In this document: piece by piece, positions 48,044 through 62,182 of the stretch
Layout: each line of letters starts with the position of its first letter
Position numbering within the stretch: position 1 is the first letter of the stretch
Position numbers and translations under genes: made by a program
The notes under the pieces: generated by a model
What the model saw: the letters and a program-made list of their open reading frames with translations, nothing else
The model's database searches: none
Told to the model about the DNA's origin: nothing
NCBI RefSeq assembly: GCF_030219325.1
Contig: NZ_CP126625.1
Span: 1,662,857-1,726,856, forward strand
Source: Geothrix sp.
Lineage (GTDB): Bacteria > Acidobacteriota > Holophagae > Holophagales > Holophagaceae
DNA length: 64,000 bases
Direction: 5' to 3'

Positions 48044-49363
48044 TCAGGCGATGGTCAGGTCGCGGCGGGCCGCGGCTTCGAGTTCATGGAGGGCCTGATC
48101 CACCCAGGCGGACTCCTGGGCCTCCACCATGAGGCGGAGCTTGGGTTCGGTGCCGGACCAGCGGATCACCTGGCGGACGCCATCGCCCCAGCGGGCGTCG
48201 ATGACGGCCATGGCGGCGGCCAGCGCGTCGCAGGCCTCGACGGCCTTCCGGTCTCGGGCCACCAGATTGACGAGCCGCTGGGGCCAGGGCCTGAAGGTCC
48301 AGTCCCAGCGGTGTTCCGGGGCGCGGTGGAGCAGGGCGCGGAGGATGGACAACCCCGCCGCGAGTCCGTCGCCGCTGGGCCCCACGCGTTTCTGGATGAG
48401 GTGGCCCGAGGCCTCCGCGGCCAGATCCCAGCCGCGCCTTGCCATCTCGCGCAGCAGGTACTTGTCCCCGACAGCGGTGCGGACGAAGGGGACGCCCGCA
48501 TGGTGCAGGACCTGGGCCAGACCGCCATTGGTCATCAGCGTGCCGACCACACCCGGGGGGGCGTCGCCGCAGGCCAGGCGATCCTGGGCAAGGAGCCAGA
48601 GCATCTGGTCGCCATCCACCACGCGACCCGCGCCGTTCACCATCAGGCAGCGATCCCCATCGCCGTCGAAGGCGATGCCCAGGTCGGCGCTCCGGGCCAC
48701 CACGGCGGCCGCCAGGGCATCCAGGTGCGTGGAACCGACGCCCACGTTGATGTTCGGTCCATCCGCGGGGACGCCGAGCCAGTGGAGGTCGCCACCGCGG
48801 AAGAGTTCCAGGGCGGCCTCCGCCGTGGCGCCGTGGGCGCAGTCGATGACCACGCGGAAGTCGGGGGGAAGGGTGATGCCTTCGAGGTGGTCCAGGTAGG
48901 GCTTCAGCTCCAGGCGGGCCGGTGGCGCGGAGATCGTCGTGGGTTCGGCCAGCTCGCCGAAGGCCGCCTCGATGGCCCGCTCCTGGTCCTCCTCCAGTTT
49001 CTCGCCAAGCTCGTTGAAGCCCTTGAGGCCGTTGTCCTCCGGGGGATTGTGGCTGGCGGAGATCATGAGGCCCCAGGTCTTCTCGCCTTCGGCGCTCAAC
49101 CTTGCCACGTTCCAGGCCACCGCGGGCGTCGGGGCCATGCCCAGCGCCAGTACCTTGAGGCCCAGGCCCACGCCCAGGATGAAGGCCTCGGACATGGGGC
49201 CCGAGCTGGAGCGGGGATCCCATCCGACCACCAGCCGCCGGACGCCTGCCATGCGCGCCACCTGGGCCCAGGCGGCACCCCAGCGGGTCACCTCCTCCAG
49301 CGTGAGCGGAGAGCGCAGGGCGACCCCTCGAATGCCATCAGTGCCGAAGTAACGGAGGCTCAC
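48044..49363 (-). CDS. glmM: Phosphoglucosamine mutase
   Basis: 439 aa. GlmM isomerises glucosamine-6-phosphate to glucosamine-1-phosphate for UDP-GlcNAc, feeding peptidoglycan and LPS. Motifs: RYFGTDGIRGVA, phosphoserine loop MISASHNPPEDNGLKGF, metal site FDGDGDRCLMV, sugar loop EASGHLI and phosphate loop RWSGTEPKLRLM. The GTG start at 49363 abuts a 7-bp hairpin whose loop is the AGGAG ribosome site, and overlaps the stop of a 48-codon leader ORF (GTGA). The same cassette precedes nnr at 60765-60791. Envelope neighbours ftsW, folP and ftsH share the operon. Confidence 0.95.
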   Translation of the reverse strand: MSLRYFGTDGIRGVALRSPLTLEEVTRWGAAWAQVARMAGVRRLVVGWDPRSSSGPMSEAFILGVGLGLKVLALGMAPTPAVAWNVARLSAEGEKTWGLMISASHNPPEDNGLKGFNELGEKLEEDQERAIEAAFGELAEPTTISAPPARLELKPYLDHLEGITLPPDFRVVIDCAHGATAEAALELFRGGDLHWLGVPADGPNINVGVGSTHLDALAAAVVARSADLGIAFDGDGDRCLMVNGAGRVVDGDQMLWLLAQDRLACGDAPPGVVGTLMTNGGLAQVLHHAGVPFVRTAVGDKYLLREMARRGWDLAAEASGHLIQKRVGPSGDGLAAGLSILRALLHRAPEHRWDWTFRPWPQRLVNLVARDRKAVEACDALAAAMAVIDARWGDGVRQVIRWSGTEPKLRLMVEAQESAWVDQALHELEAAARRDLTIA

Positions 49364-49506
49364 GCGGCACCTCCTGTGCCGCGCCCGTCATTCGGCCCAT
49401 CCTGGGCCTCATCCCTGCGGGACCGGACTTTCGTCCGGTGGCGCTCGGCTCCTGCCTCGCGCTCGGGGTTCGGCTTCGCCAAATTGGCACTTCGCTCGTG
49501 CTTCAT
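49360..49506 (-). CDS. Small leader ORF (48 aa) coupled to glmM
   Basis: Starts ATG 49506 (or 49512, MSMKHER), 9-15 nt after the folP stop, and ends in the TGA of a GTGA overlap with the glmM start. The product is basic and polar (MKHERSANLAKPNPEREAG..., ending GRGTGGAA), with no known domain. A shorter ORF with the same LAKPxP core and the same GRGTGGAA end precedes nnr, 11 kb away. The shared ends suggest selection for coupling or a mobile small element rather than for a protein. No ribosome site is obvious, so expression is uncertain. Confidence 0.45.
   Translation of the reverse strand: MKHERSANLAKPNPEREAGAERHRTKVRSRRDEAQDGPNDGRGTGGAA
49364..49382 (-). promoter_or_regulatory. Ribosome-site hairpin of glmM: AGGAG in the loop
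   Basis: Read on the minus strand: GCGGCAC, loop AGGAG, GTGCCGC, then directly the GTG start. Perfect 7-bp stem. The 27-nt cassette 49360-49386 is identical to 60765-60791 before nnr. A second shared 15-nt palindrome (TTTGGCGAAGCCGAA) lies at 49469-49483. Confidence 0.7.
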
Positions 49507-49521
49507 GCTCATGAGGCAAGG

Positions 49522-50336
49522 TTACCCGATGGCGTGGGTTCTGAAGACCCTGTAGTCCCACCGCCGCGCCTCGGCGTGGGCATCTGCCGTGAGCCCATCG
49601 CGCTGGCCTGGTGGCAGGCCGGGCGCTCCGGCCCGGGCGGCCAGGAAGCGCTTGCGCGAGATGCCGAGGCAGAACCGTTCCACCGGCCAGGTCAGGGCTT
49701 CCGGAAGGCGGGGCAGGGCCTGCCACAGGGCCAGGTCCTCCCGGAAGGTGGTGCCGAAGCCGAACCCCGGATCGAGGAGGATCCTGGTCCCGAAGACGCC
49801 CGCCTGCAGGAGGCGGTCACGGACGGCGCACAGCTCCCGGATGGCCGCCTCGGCATCCCTCGGAGTGGGATCGTCGTAGGGCGGCATGTGGAAGCCCGCG
49901 CCCTCCCGGCGGCTGCGCATGGCAATGAGGCCACAGCTCGATCCGCCGGCCAGATCCAGCATGGCGGGGTCGGAGAAGCCGGTGACGTCGTTGAGCACGG
50001 CGACGCCCGCAGCCAGACCGCGGGCTGCCACGCCCGCGTGACGGGTGTCCAGGCTGAGGGGGATGGCGGGGAGCTGCTCGCCCAGGGCGGCCAGGACGGG
50101 CTCCAGACGCTCCCACTCGGTGGTTGCGGAGACGGGCGCAGCGCCGGGCCGCGTGCTCTCCGCACCCAGGTCCAGCATCCCAGCCCCGGCCGCCACCAGG
50201 GCGCGGGCCTGCGCCAGGGCCGCTTCCGGCGCCAGGAACCGGCCGCCATCGCTGAAGGAGTCGGGGGTCAGATTGAGGATGCCGATGAAAAGGGGACCGC
50301 CCTTCAGGAGCGGTCCCCAATCAAACGGGAGCATGG

Positions 50337-50340
<4 letters not shown>
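49522..50340 (-). CDS. folP: Dihydropteroate synthase
   Basis: 272 aa TIM-barrel enzyme joining p-aminobenzoate to the pterin diphosphate in folate synthesis; the sulfonamide target. Motifs: [67 protein letters not shown] and LGISRKRFL. The GTG start at 50340 overlaps the ftsH stop (GTGA); an ATG at 50334 is two codons on. ftsH-folP-glmM is a frequent order in bacteria. Followed by the glmM leader ORF. Confidence 0.95.
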
Positions 50341-59121: not shown

Positions 59122-60126
59122 ATGTCCCACGCCAACCACACCCTCTGGATGGAGCGCTTCCGGGCCCGCGCCAAGGAACTGCAGCGTCACATCGTGCTGC
59201 CGGAGGGCCGTGAGGATCGCACGCTGCAGGCCGCCCAGCTGCTGCTGGACCAGGGCCTCTGCCGCCTCACCCTGCTGGGCGATCCCGCCGCCATGACGGC
59301 GCGGGGCGCGGCCCTGGGCCTCTCCCTGAAGGGCGCCATGCTGGTGGATCCCGCCACGAGCCCGCTGCTCCAGGAACTTGCCGGAGCCTACTACGAGCGC
59401 CGCAAGGCCAAGGGCATCACCGAAGCCCAGGCGCTGGAAGGCGTCCACAACCCGCTGTGGTTCGGGGCCATGCTCGTGCAGTGTGGCCACTGCGACGGCA
59501 TGGTCGCCGGCGCCCTGAACACCACCGCCGAAACCGTACGGGCCTGCCTCCAGGCCATCGGCGCCGCCAAGGGGATCAAGACCGTCTCCAGCTTCTTCAT
59601 GATGATCCACCCTGACGCCTCCTATGGCGAACAGGGCGCGGTGATCTTCGCTGACTGCGCGGTGGTGCCTGATCCCACCCCGGAACAGCTGGCAGACATC
59701 GCCATCGCCGCCGGGGAGAACGCCCGCAGCGTCATGGGCGTGGAACCCCGCGTGGCCCTGCTCAGCTTCTCCACCCGCGGCTCTGCCGAGCACCCCTGCG
59801 TGGACAAGGTCCGCGCGGCCCTGGCCATCATCAAGGACAAGGCGCCGGACCTGGCGGTGGATGGCGAGCTGCAGGCCGATGCCGCCCTGCTGCCTTCCGT
59901 GGGCCAGCGCAAGGCGCCCGGCTCGAATGTGGCGGGACGCGCCAATGTGCTGGTCTTCCCCGACCTCAACGCCGGGAACATCTCGTACAAGATCGCCGAG
60001 CGCATGGGCGGGGCCGCGGCCATCGGGCCCTTCCTCCAGGGCCTCGCCAAGCCGGCCAATGACCTCAGCCGGGGCTGCAGCGCCCAGGACATCGCCGACA
60101 CGGTGGTGCTCACGGCCCTCCAGTGA
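59122..60126 (+). CDS. pta: Phosphate acetyltransferase
   Basis: 334 aa, the short (single catalytic domain) Pta. It interconverts acetyl-CoA and acetyl phosphate. Motifs: [101 protein letters not shown] and [47 protein letters not shown] 59122 with GGAGG. The stop overlaps the GTG start of purN (GTGA). No ackA is next to it. Confidence 0.95.
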
Positions 60127-60704
60127 AGCGGCTCGCCCTCTTCATCTCCGGCGCCGGCGGCAACGCCCTGAACCTGCTCAGGGCCTGCCGGGAGGGCCGG
60201 GTGGCCGGCCTGCCGGTGTTGGGGTTGGCCTCCACGGCCAAGGCCGGCGGTCTCGCGCTGCTGGAGGCTGAAGGGTTGGGTACGGTGGTGGTGGTCCGCA
60301 AGGACTTCGGGTCGGACGAGGCCTTTTCGGAGGCCTGCTACCAGGCGGCGGAGGCAGCCGGGGCCGAGGTCATCTGCCTCTGTGGGTGGCTCAAGAAACT
60401 GACGGTTCCGACGCGCTGGGCGGGTCGCATCCTCAACATCCATCCGGGCCTCCTGCCCCAGTACGGGGGGCCGGGCATGTACGGCATGCACGTCCACCGC
60501 GCCGTCATTGATGCAGGAGAAGCCGAATCCGGCGCCACCGTGCACCTGGTGGATGACGAATACGACCGCGGGCGGATCCTCGACCAGCTGCGGGTTCCCG
60601 TCCTGGCTGGGGATACTCCCGAGGATCTCCAAAAGCGGGTCTATGCTGCCGAGATGGAGCTGTTCCCCAGGGCGCTGGCGGCATATCTTTCGGAACGGGC
60701 CTAA
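60123..60704 (+). CDS. purN: Phosphoribosylglycinamide formyltransferase
   Basis: 193 aa. PurN transfers a formyl group from 10-formyl-THF to GAR in purine synthesis. Motifs: [14 protein letters not shown], the folate/catalytic site [49 protein letters not shown] with catalytic N-H-D. The usual SGxGSN is SGAGGN. The GTG start overlaps pta by 4 nt. It ends 9 nt before the nnr leader ORF. Confidence 0.93.
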
Positions 60705-60713
60705 ACTGTTCGC

Positions 60714-60791
60714 ATGAGAACGAAGCAGAGGCGGAGTTCCACTTTGGCGAAGCCGAAGCCCGGAGGGCGCGGCACAGGAGGTGCCGCGTGA
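60714..60791 (+). CDS. Small leader ORF (25 aa) coupled to nnr
   Basis: ATG 60714 to TGA 60791, which overlaps the GTG of nnr (GTGA). The product has MRTKQRRSS, then LAKPKPGG and RGTGGAA; the LAKPxP core and last eight residues match the glmM leader ORF. No ribosome site stands out, and the reading frame may simply be carried by the shared DNA cassette. Its exact stop-start overlap at both sites argues for translational coupling. Confidence 0.4.
   Translation: MRTKQRRSSTLAKPKPGGRGTGGAA
60769..60787 (+). promoter_or_regulatory. Ribosome-site hairpin of nnr: AGGAG in the loop
   Basis: GCGGCAC, loop AGGAG, GTGCCGC, then the GTG start at 60788. Identical over 27 nt (60765-60791) to the glmM site at 49360-49386. 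A TTTGGCGAAGCCGAA palindrome is at 60743-60757. Confidence 0.7.
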
Positions 60792-62182
60792 TTCCTCTAC
60801 TTACCGCCGACGAGATGCGGGCTGCGGAACGCCAGGCCATTGAGGGCTGGGGCGTTCCGTCGCTGACCCTCCAGGAGCATGCCGCCCTCGGGGCCTTGGC
60901 CCTGCTGCCACCGGGTGAGCCCATCCATGTCCTGGCCGGCCCCGGCAACAACGGTGGGGATGCCCTGGCCTTGGCGCGCCTGGCTCGATTGCAGGGACGG
61001 ACGGTCCAGGTCTGGGCACCCAGCATCTGGGCTGAATGGCGAGGGGATGCCGCGATCCAGGCCCGGTTGTGGAAGGGACTCGGCGGCGAGGTCCAGACCG
61101 CGGCAGATCCGGCCGAACTCATGAGGACCTGGCGCGGCTGGGTGGTCGATGGGCTCTTCGGCCTCGGCACCACGCGCCCCCTGGAGGGGACGACCTTGAC
61201 CTGGGTGCGGGCCCTGAATGCCAGCGGTTTGCCGGTGCTCGCCCTGGACCTCCCTTCGGGACTGGATCCCAACACGGCCGAGCTCTCTGGCGAGGCCGTC
61301 CGCGCCACCCGGACCGCCTGCTTCGGGGCCCTCAAGGTCTGCCATGGGCTGCTCCCGGCGCGGGATCTTTGTGGGGAGATCTCGGTCGTCCCCATTCCCC
61401 TGGACCGGGCGCCCAGGGCGGCCATGCAGCTGCTCGAGCGCCCGGCGCTTCCGGCCCGCGAATGGAACGCCCACAAGGGCAGCTTCGGCCATGTGGTCAT
61501 CCGGGCGGGCAGCCTCGGCATGAGCGGCGCTGCCGTGCTGGCGGCCCTGGGCGCCCTGCGGGTGGGGGCGGGCCTGGTGACGGTGCTTTCCGAACCGGAG
61601 GTCCGGGCTGAGATCGCGGCCCAGGTGCCCGAGGCCATGGTGCGGGCCTGGCAGGGATCGGTTCCCGCGGAGGCCGATGTCCTCCTGGTGGGCCCGGGCG
61701 GCATCAGCCAGGTGCCCGACTGGGATGGCCCGCTGGTGGTGGATGCCTCGGCCCTCAAGGAAGGCGAGGGGCGGCGGTGGATGGATCGTCCGGGCACGGC
61801 CATCACACCCCATCCGGGCGAGTTCGCCCGCCTCTTCCGCTTGTCCCGCCCCCTCCTGATGGATGAGCGCCTCGCGCAGGCCCGCCAAGTGGCGGCCGGG
61901 CGCCCCGGTGTCCTGCTCCTCAAGGGCGCCCAGAGCGTCATCGCCGGCGGCGCGCGGGAGGAGCTCTGGATCAATCCCACGGGCCACCCGGGCATGGCCA
62001 CCGGTGGCAGCGGCGACCTGCTGGCCGGCATGGTGGCGGGCTTCCGGGCCCAGGGTCTGCCCATGCGCGAGGCGGTGGCCGCCGCGGCCTGGTTCCATGG
62101 TGCCGCCGGGGATCGCCTGCCCGGGGCCGGCCTGCTCCCCACGGATCTCGCGGGGCTCCTGCCGGAGCTCCTGCGTGCCTGA
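60788..62182 (+). CDS. nnr: Bifunctional NAD(P)H-hydrate repair enzyme
   Basis: 464 aa, somewhat shorter than the E. coli Nnr (YjeF, 515). The N-terminal epimerase domain (~1-205: TADEMRAAERQAIE, LAGPGNNGGDALALARL, VVDGLFGLGTTRPLEG, ALDLPSGLDPNTAELSG) and the C-terminal dehydratase domain (~215-464: KGSFGHVVIRAGSLGMSGAAVLAALGALRVGAGLVTV, TPHPGEFARL, LLLKGAQSVIAGG, NPTGHPGMATGGSGDLLAGMVAGF) are complete. It repairs NADHX/NADPHX. GTG start behind the SD-loop hairpin. Overlaps tsaE by 8 nt. Confidence 0.95.
   Translation: MIPLLTADEMRAAERQAIEGWGVPSLTLQEHAALGALALLPPGEPIHVLAGPGNNGGDALALARLARLQGRTVQVWAPSIWAEWRGDAAIQARLWKGLGGEVQTAADPAELMRTWRGWVVDGLFGLGTTRPLEGTTLTWVRALNASGLPVLALDLPSGLDPNTAELSGEAVRATRTACFGALKVCHGLLPARDLCGEISVVPIPLDRAPRAAMQLLERPALPAREWNAHKGSFGHVVIRAGSLGMSGAAVLAALGALRVGAGLVTVLSEPEVRAEIAAQVPEAMVRAWQGSVPAEADVLLVGPGGISQVPDWDGPLVVDASALKEGEGRRWMDRPGTAITPHPGEFARLFRLSRPLLMDERLAQARQVAAGRPGVLLLKGAQSVIAGGAREELWINPTGHPGMATGGSGDLLAGMVAGFRAQGLPMREAVAAAAWFHGAAGDRLPGAGLLPTDLAGLLPELLRA

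Follow-up and report, generated by a model that had tools for sequence, protein, structure and literature searches.

The hairpin and mini-gene before glmM in a Geothrix genome are one copy of a small dispersed structured element of Holophagaceae

IS200/IS605- and RAYT-type elements are hairpin-ended and occur as short, non-autonomous copies. The MIRUs of mycobacteria insert at start codons and have an internal ORF that is coupled at a -4 nt spacing (PMC12548453). Between senX3 and regX3 they form tandem units of 77 bp and 53 bp, for which a promoter role has been reported (PMC4213456), and parA, which is leaderless in M. marinum, has in M. bovis a 77-nt leader made of MIRU (PMC4128351). The Start-Associated Sequences (SAS) of cluster K mycobacteriophages have AGGAG flanked by GGG/CCC arms and usually lie 3-7 bp 5' of start codons (PMC3203893), and BRE is a dispersed repeat of ~90 bp, some copies of which overlap ORF ends by a few bases (PMC3110155). 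We analyzed a 64-kb stretch of Geothrix DNA (the window) and found that the hairpin and mini-gene before its glmM gene are one copy of a small dispersed structured element of Geothrix and two other Holophagaceae genera. Dispersal, exact insertion at start codons, a kept reading relay and a kept fold were all observed, and we put at roughly 0.86 the probability that what precedes glmM is a miniature mobile element of Holophagaceae with RTGA start codons as its insertion sites.

Like the MIRUs, the Geothrix element is a short dispersed repeat with several copies and tandem arrays, and it lies at start codons with an ORF overlap of -4 nt, a coupling that is known by sequence only. Unlike theirs, its host is no mycobacterium and belongs to another phylum, and the element has a covarying fold of four hairpins in which a loop displays AGGAG and a stem takes in the start-codon base; MIRU hairpins, or a start-codon base held in a stem, find no mention in the available parts of the literature consulted. 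The two were compared by description, and contig matches confined to Geothrix, Holophagaceae and Acidobacteria say nothing on distant kinship. Since the phylum differs, a covarying fold was not seen for MIRUs and the likeness is one of description, we have not filed the element as a MIRU; it appears to follow a MIRU-like way of life, set apart from MIRUs proper. SAS differ in being 13 bp long and phage-borne, in lying near rather than at the start codon itself and in having no coupled sORF (short ORF) reported in the parts of the source available. They were rejected as an identity for the element, whose sequence differs by eye from the SAS (GGGATAGGAGCCC before phage gene starts) and matches 0 phage records. 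BRE is likewise set apart by description, the accessible part of its source reporting neither start-codon insertion nor coupling. IS200/IS605- and RAYT-type elements are alike in their hairpins and short copies; the difference is that the genome containing the window (the source genome) has no Y1 transposase match.

The features at the glmM junction are as follows.
48044..49363, minus strand: glmM, with phosphoglucomutase/phosphomannomutase domains I-IV (Pfam)
49360..49363, minus strand: GTGA, in which the sORF stop TGA overlaps the glmM start GTG
49360..49512, minus strand: element copy 1, composite, 153 nt, equal to a 50-codon sORF from the ATG at 49512 to the TGA at 49362-49360
49363..49383, minus strand: hairpin H4 of copy 1, 8-bp stem, loop AGGAG at 49375-49371
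49387..49464, minus strand: H3 loop of copy 1, enlarged by 75 nt in frame
49470..49482, minus strand: H2 of copy 1 (TTGGC-GAA-GCCGA), from covariation and model match
49487..49508, minus strand: H1 of copy 1 (GCAT/GTGC), from sequence and covariation structure
49519..49524, minus strand: -10-like TAACCT, 6 nt 5' of the sORF ATG, a putative promoter box
49522..50340, minus strand: folP (pterin-binding enzyme, Pfam), the gene upstream of glmM

The original prediction had described here a 7-bp stem, GCGGCAC/GTGCCGC, around an AGGAG loop. These pairs are present at 49382-49364 on the minus strand; the length is one pair short, since C49383 also pairs with G49363 (8 bp), and the stem thus takes in the initial G of the GTG with which glmM starts. 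The 27-nt hairpin before glmM has a folding energy of -17.7 kcal/mol (mean of shuffles, -8.9), and 0 of 200 shuffles were as stable. The predicted ORF of 48 codons is correct when counted from the second ATG at 49506 (50 codons from the ATG at 49512), and its stop does lie in the GTGA overlap with the glmM start, at 49363-49360. In this copy the H1 loop is ACGA in place of AGGA, and the 75-nt enlargement, which is shared in frame with a copy before a murF-like gene (L002/L035), holds the hairpins GGC-AGGA-GCC, ACCGGAC-GAAA-GTCCGGT and GGCCC-AGGAT-GGGCC. The TAA of the TAACCT box doubles as the folP stop. A search of the source genome for the hairpin itself, suggested by the original prediction, showed no enrichment (13-nt pattern, at most 1 mismatch: 17 matches vs. 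30 for the pattern read backwards); the junction stands above chance because the whole of it is a dispersed repeat with covarying stems. An Rfam scan of positions 49200-49700 returned no family, its two matches (E 0.97 and 2) falling far below gathering.

When the junction was used as a query against the source genome (a single contig of 3.73 Mb), a further copy with 87% identity and several shorter ones were recovered. The basic unit is 78 nt long (ATGAGC...GAAGCAGGAGCG.AG.GCCACTTTGGCGAAGCCGAAGCCCG.AGGGCGCGGCACAGGAGGTGCCGCGTGA, with many variants) and encodes a peptide resembling MSTKQERSATLAKPKPEGRGTGGAA followed by a stop; its short ORF forms four hairpins. Since the unit ends in RTGA, the sORF stop overlaps the start of the next gene by 4 nt, and this relay, as read from the sequences, is kept open across copies. 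A covariance model was built from 74 distinct units, those left from 87 full ones after 7 not 78 nt long and 6 duplicates were dropped (the distinct 27-mer set held 49). At E < 1e-8 the model gave 15 matches in the source genome, i.e., 14 units with the glmM copy counted twice, at 12 loci, two of which lie inside the window (49360-49512, minus strand, and 60714-60791, plus strand). By BLAST the element was present in 34 of 37 genus members and in 0 of 23 genomes outside the genus. Two genus genomes that had no BLAST match, G008 and G018, gave one model match each, which ends before a 10-codon ORF only. The structure model matched 17 of 199 genomes of the phylum; 14 of the 17 belong to the genus, with no genus member in the list of 37 genomes left unmatched, and two of the four listed genomes of other Holophagaceae genera matched (15 and 3 matches). 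A degenerate core pattern run over genome contigs found 54 stretches, and every record title among them reads Geothrix, Holophagaceae or Acidobacteria bacterium. The last of the 17 genomes matched by the structure model belongs to another Acidobacteriota family; its single good match lies on a 4,126-base contig (L303, G158:C248) and may reflect transfer or contamination. Spread via phages or plasmids was considered and set aside, the pattern having matched 0 viral contigs and blastn with one unit 0 plasmid and 0 phage records. No such element is described for Geothrix or Acidobacteriota in the literature searched, a body of material that omits most subscription papers.

The four hairpins are supported by covariation. 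Among the 74 units, 95.7% of cells were paired, a figure that is favored because the structure was drawn from the same sequences, and 13 of 20 pairs had changed on both sides. The covariation score was 0.276 vs. 0.117 +/- 0.006 in shuffles, with 0 of 500 as high, counts that are not probabilities because the units are related to each other; slid versions of the structure reached at most 0.075. RNAalifold, unaided, produced essentially the same four hairpins, and a further set of 22 matches, to which the two other genera contributed 16, scored 0.507 vs. 0.124 in an alignment fitted to the model. H4 displays AGGAG in its loop, and the base that closes its stem is the initial one of the start codon that follows: column 55 and this base form C-G in 47 and U-A in 24 of the 74 units, so that GUG and AUG starts are each matched by their own stem partner. 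GGA occurs in the H1 loop of 62, the H4 loop of 70 and both loops of 58 of the 74 units.

Comparison with relatives revealed how the element came to precede glmM. We found glmM in 40 of 41 genus genomes and read 30 loci, our own and 29 of the 39 others. At all 29 of the latter, glmM begins directly at ATGA, and the folP-glmM junction has no element. In G013, the closest (91% glmM protein identity), the empty site reads ...GGGTAACCTTGCCTG ATGAGTCTCCGC, as compared with ...GGGTAACCTTGCCTC ATGAGC-element-GTGAGCCTCCGT at the filled site of the source genome. The glmM start codon is GTG in the source genome and ATG in the 29 relatives read; therefore, the GTG came with the element.

The second window copy lies before nnrD and is a single unit.
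60123..60704, plus strand: formyltransferase (purN-like, Pfam), the upstream gene
60702..60707, plus strand: -10-like TAAACT, 6 nt 5' of the sORF ATG, a putative promoter box, its TAA being the formyltransferase stop
60714..60791, plus strand: element copy 2, a simple 78-nt unit with a 25-codon sORF ending in GTGA (model match, 102.7 bits)
60788..62182, plus strand: nnrD (YjeF_N and Carb_kinase, Pfam), with a GTG start supplied by the element

Thirty loci were read for nnrD, which was found in 39 of 41 genus genomes. Eight have the element, one (L261) has by eye a remnant, two have other mini ORFs and 19 are empty, with the start ATGA in 17 and ATGC in 2. Examined for a single origin, the insertion history at this locus takes 5 changes on a weakly supported tree. 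The empty sites at glmM (29/29) and nnrD (19/30) together establish that insertion took place exactly at the start codon. The two other mini ORFs, 33 nt long (ATGAAC...GTGAT) and coupled to nnrD in G020 and G029 (L281, L283), are perhaps decayed element copies or perhaps another family.

We then examined 90 sites, 10 of the 12 loci of the source genome and 80 fetched from the top of the match list; because of that choice good copies are over-represented, and orthologous sites were counted more than once. The right end was RTGA at 82 sites, ATGT at 3 (orthologous genes), GTCA at 4, which have no start codon, and a contig end at 1. The terminal RTG opens at least 60 codons in 76 of the 82 and fewer in 6, while other RTGA in the flanks do so in 861 of 1779. 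At the left, a start was found for 80 sites: ATGA at 71, GTGA at 8 and CTGA at 1. When the 85 sites with a right end (82 RTGA, 3 ATGT) were taken for clustering, 81 with an ORF of at least 30 codons gave 38 clusters of downstream proteins from unrelated genes. Named by eye (the Pfam check covers the window genes only), these include hemC-, NAD synthase-, murF-, nuoB-, nuoC-, dnaE-, ddl-, prmA- and dnaJ-like genes and others; in the two other genera enolase and threonine synthase are examples, also by eye. Directly after the start codon, A is found in 37 of the 38 target clusters vs. 26 of 47 SD-supported starts, the latter from crude start calls.

The relay from the leftmost ATG or GTG, through stop-start overlaps, to the gene start was intact at 71 of 76 sites with both ends (41/43 simple, 30/33 composite or tandem), a count to be set against the rough expectation that an insert of random length would keep frame in ~1/3 of cases. 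Of the five failures, three concern the ATGT genes, whose start is still overlapped by an sORF that stops a few bases past it; the others are a frameshift (L166) and a copy of doubtful status in the vicinity of csrA (L038). The frame is mostly kept in composite and tandem forms, with up to five units spaced at 74 nt, and 74 of the 87 full units have an open sORF of their own. Variation by codon position was 0.203/0.141/0.173; reading frame 1 was unusable as a control because every unit has TGA at positions 2-4. With no third-position excess, selection on the sORF peptide at the protein level found no support, and it is therefore the open frame alone that is evidence for translation.

Left of the element, a TANNNT box lies 4-8 nt before the start at 33 of 80 sites, at exactly 6 nt in 27. 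In 500 shuffles the count averaged 2.5 and never exceeded 9, and such a box precedes 4 of 145 first ATGs of long ORFs, a background that rests on crude start calls. SD-like motifs were present at the left start of 27 of the 80 sites, and 24 had neither. A TAAnCT-type (TAATCT-type) box persists in the glmM relatives and, judged by eye, does so even at L104, L108 and L109, where folP seems to stop at another position. These boxes look like the -10 boxes of leaderless mRNAs; TANNNT is given as the mycobacterial -10 (PMC4128351).

How a gene could survive such an insertion is suggested by this anatomy. As the sequences show, the original start of the target becomes that of the element's sORF, and the far end of the element supplies the SD-loop hairpin and a new RTG start that overlaps the sORF stop by 4 nt. 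On an mRNA that is often of the leaderless type, a ribosome would be recruited to the sORF by the start signal native to the target and, in reading the sORF, would melt H4, freeing the spacer and the start-codon base that the stem would otherwise enclose. It would then stop at TGA and, helped by AGGAG, restart on the overlapping RTG; termination-reinitiation at such overlaps has been tested in Haloferax volcanii and E. coli (PMC6728339). Because the element brings a mini-gene, a ribosome-site hairpin and a start codon, the gene on which it lands can probably still be translated. The host protein would still be made from its first Met, so that insertion into core operons would be tolerated.

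The readings that compete with this one differ in what the hairpins and the coupling are for. The original prediction held that the junction is a glmM-specific leader controlling UDP-GlcNAc supply through an SD displayed in a loop and read through by a coupled upstream ORF. Its hairpin, SD in the loop and coupled ORF are all present, and the arrangement fits the anatomy and the relay intact at 71 of 76 sites. The control of UDP-GlcNAc, however, is improbable in the extreme: by its own refuting condition such a reading fails, since none of the 29 relatives read has the hairpin and ORF in front of glmM, and the same element precedes many unrelated genes. We also consider it very unlikely that the AGGA-loop hairpins represent CsrA operators dispersed over the genome. 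Most units have GGA in both the H1 and H4 loops (58/74), the enlargement in the glmM copy holds two more AGGA-loop hairpins and csrA is present in the source genome, but only 29 of the 41 genus genomes gave a csrA match; G013, which is 95% complete, gave none despite its 11 element matches, and H1 of the glmM copy is without GGA. CsrA was thus rejected as the reason for the AGGA loops, the element being kept where csrA was not found.

Use to the host is a further consideration. Some sites are common to many genomes with varying copy number, such as a kinase-like locus that accounts for 9 fetched sites, and the relays stay intact, as would be expected of a domesticated family whose copies are retained because the coupled relay usefully tunes expression; given the patchy presence at glmM and nnrD and the unrelated targets, we regard this as unlikely. 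There is a somewhat better, although still doubtful, prospect that the four hairpins are conserved for mobility, i.e., for ssDNA or RNA recognition by the mover, and that coupling merely lets copies survive. The GGA loops of the outer hairpins H1 and H4, stems that covary with a peptide free to vary, and tandem growth at RTGA with a 74-nt period (five identical-scoring units in G033) are all consistent with it, but the in-frame composite lengths and open frames suggest that translation matters. A Y1 transposase (IS200/IS605, RAYT) was rejected as the mover, there being no match in the source genome and matches in only 4 of 41 genus genomes, a result that also counts against this reading. Returning to the miniature element that inserts at RTGA starts, we tentatively suggest, at less than even odds, that it homes to start codons: with the start-codon base in its 3' hairpin stem, it might move as ssDNA or RNA to RTGA starts, preferring leaderless genes and bringing a complete start module. 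If true, this would be a MIRU system that arose by convergence outside mycobacteria, and it could reveal how MIRUs move.

These results indicate that the MIRU strategy of inserting at a start codon and relaying translation to the gene by way of a mini-ORF occurs outside mycobacteria, here with an explicit covarying fold that is hence testable. Natural pairs of filled and empty sites (two loci compared, many more likely), several of them in core genes, lend themselves to measuring the coupling and the cost of insertion. Annotators should be aware that GTG starts such as that of glmM here come from an inserted element.

Several minor observations concern repeats within or beside the copies. A second repeat is nested in element copies, with 23 inserts (L153, L165, L178 and others) in a listing of only those fitting a pattern with inverted ends; it is 51 nt long in 18 of the 23 and otherwise 52 or 58 nt. 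Its inverted ends are CTCCGCC/GGCGGAG and CTCCATGT/ACATGGAG, with GGAGG or AGAGG at the borders. Inserts of the 51-nt type occupy the AGGAG loop of H4, and where a relay could be traced through them it stays in frame. At L018, L158, L192, L306 and L307, copies run not into a gene start but into a duplicate of the upstream gene's end (encoding IIAGELDR or similar; our guess is nuoD), the ends being GTCA in L018, L158 and L192 and GTGA with a 10-codon ORF in L306 and L307; L158 has three such copies with a 155-nt period. At L009/L038 (G000:C1:3560053-3560574), csrA follows a gene that is fliW-like by eye, and a damaged element copy lies ~280 bases downstream. Finally, before a kinase-like gene with a MKIAFIGTHGVGKTTL-like start (L015, L137, L174, L180, L189, L190, L194, L195, L202), the number of tandem units varies between genomes, with five in G033, making this a natural VNTR locus.
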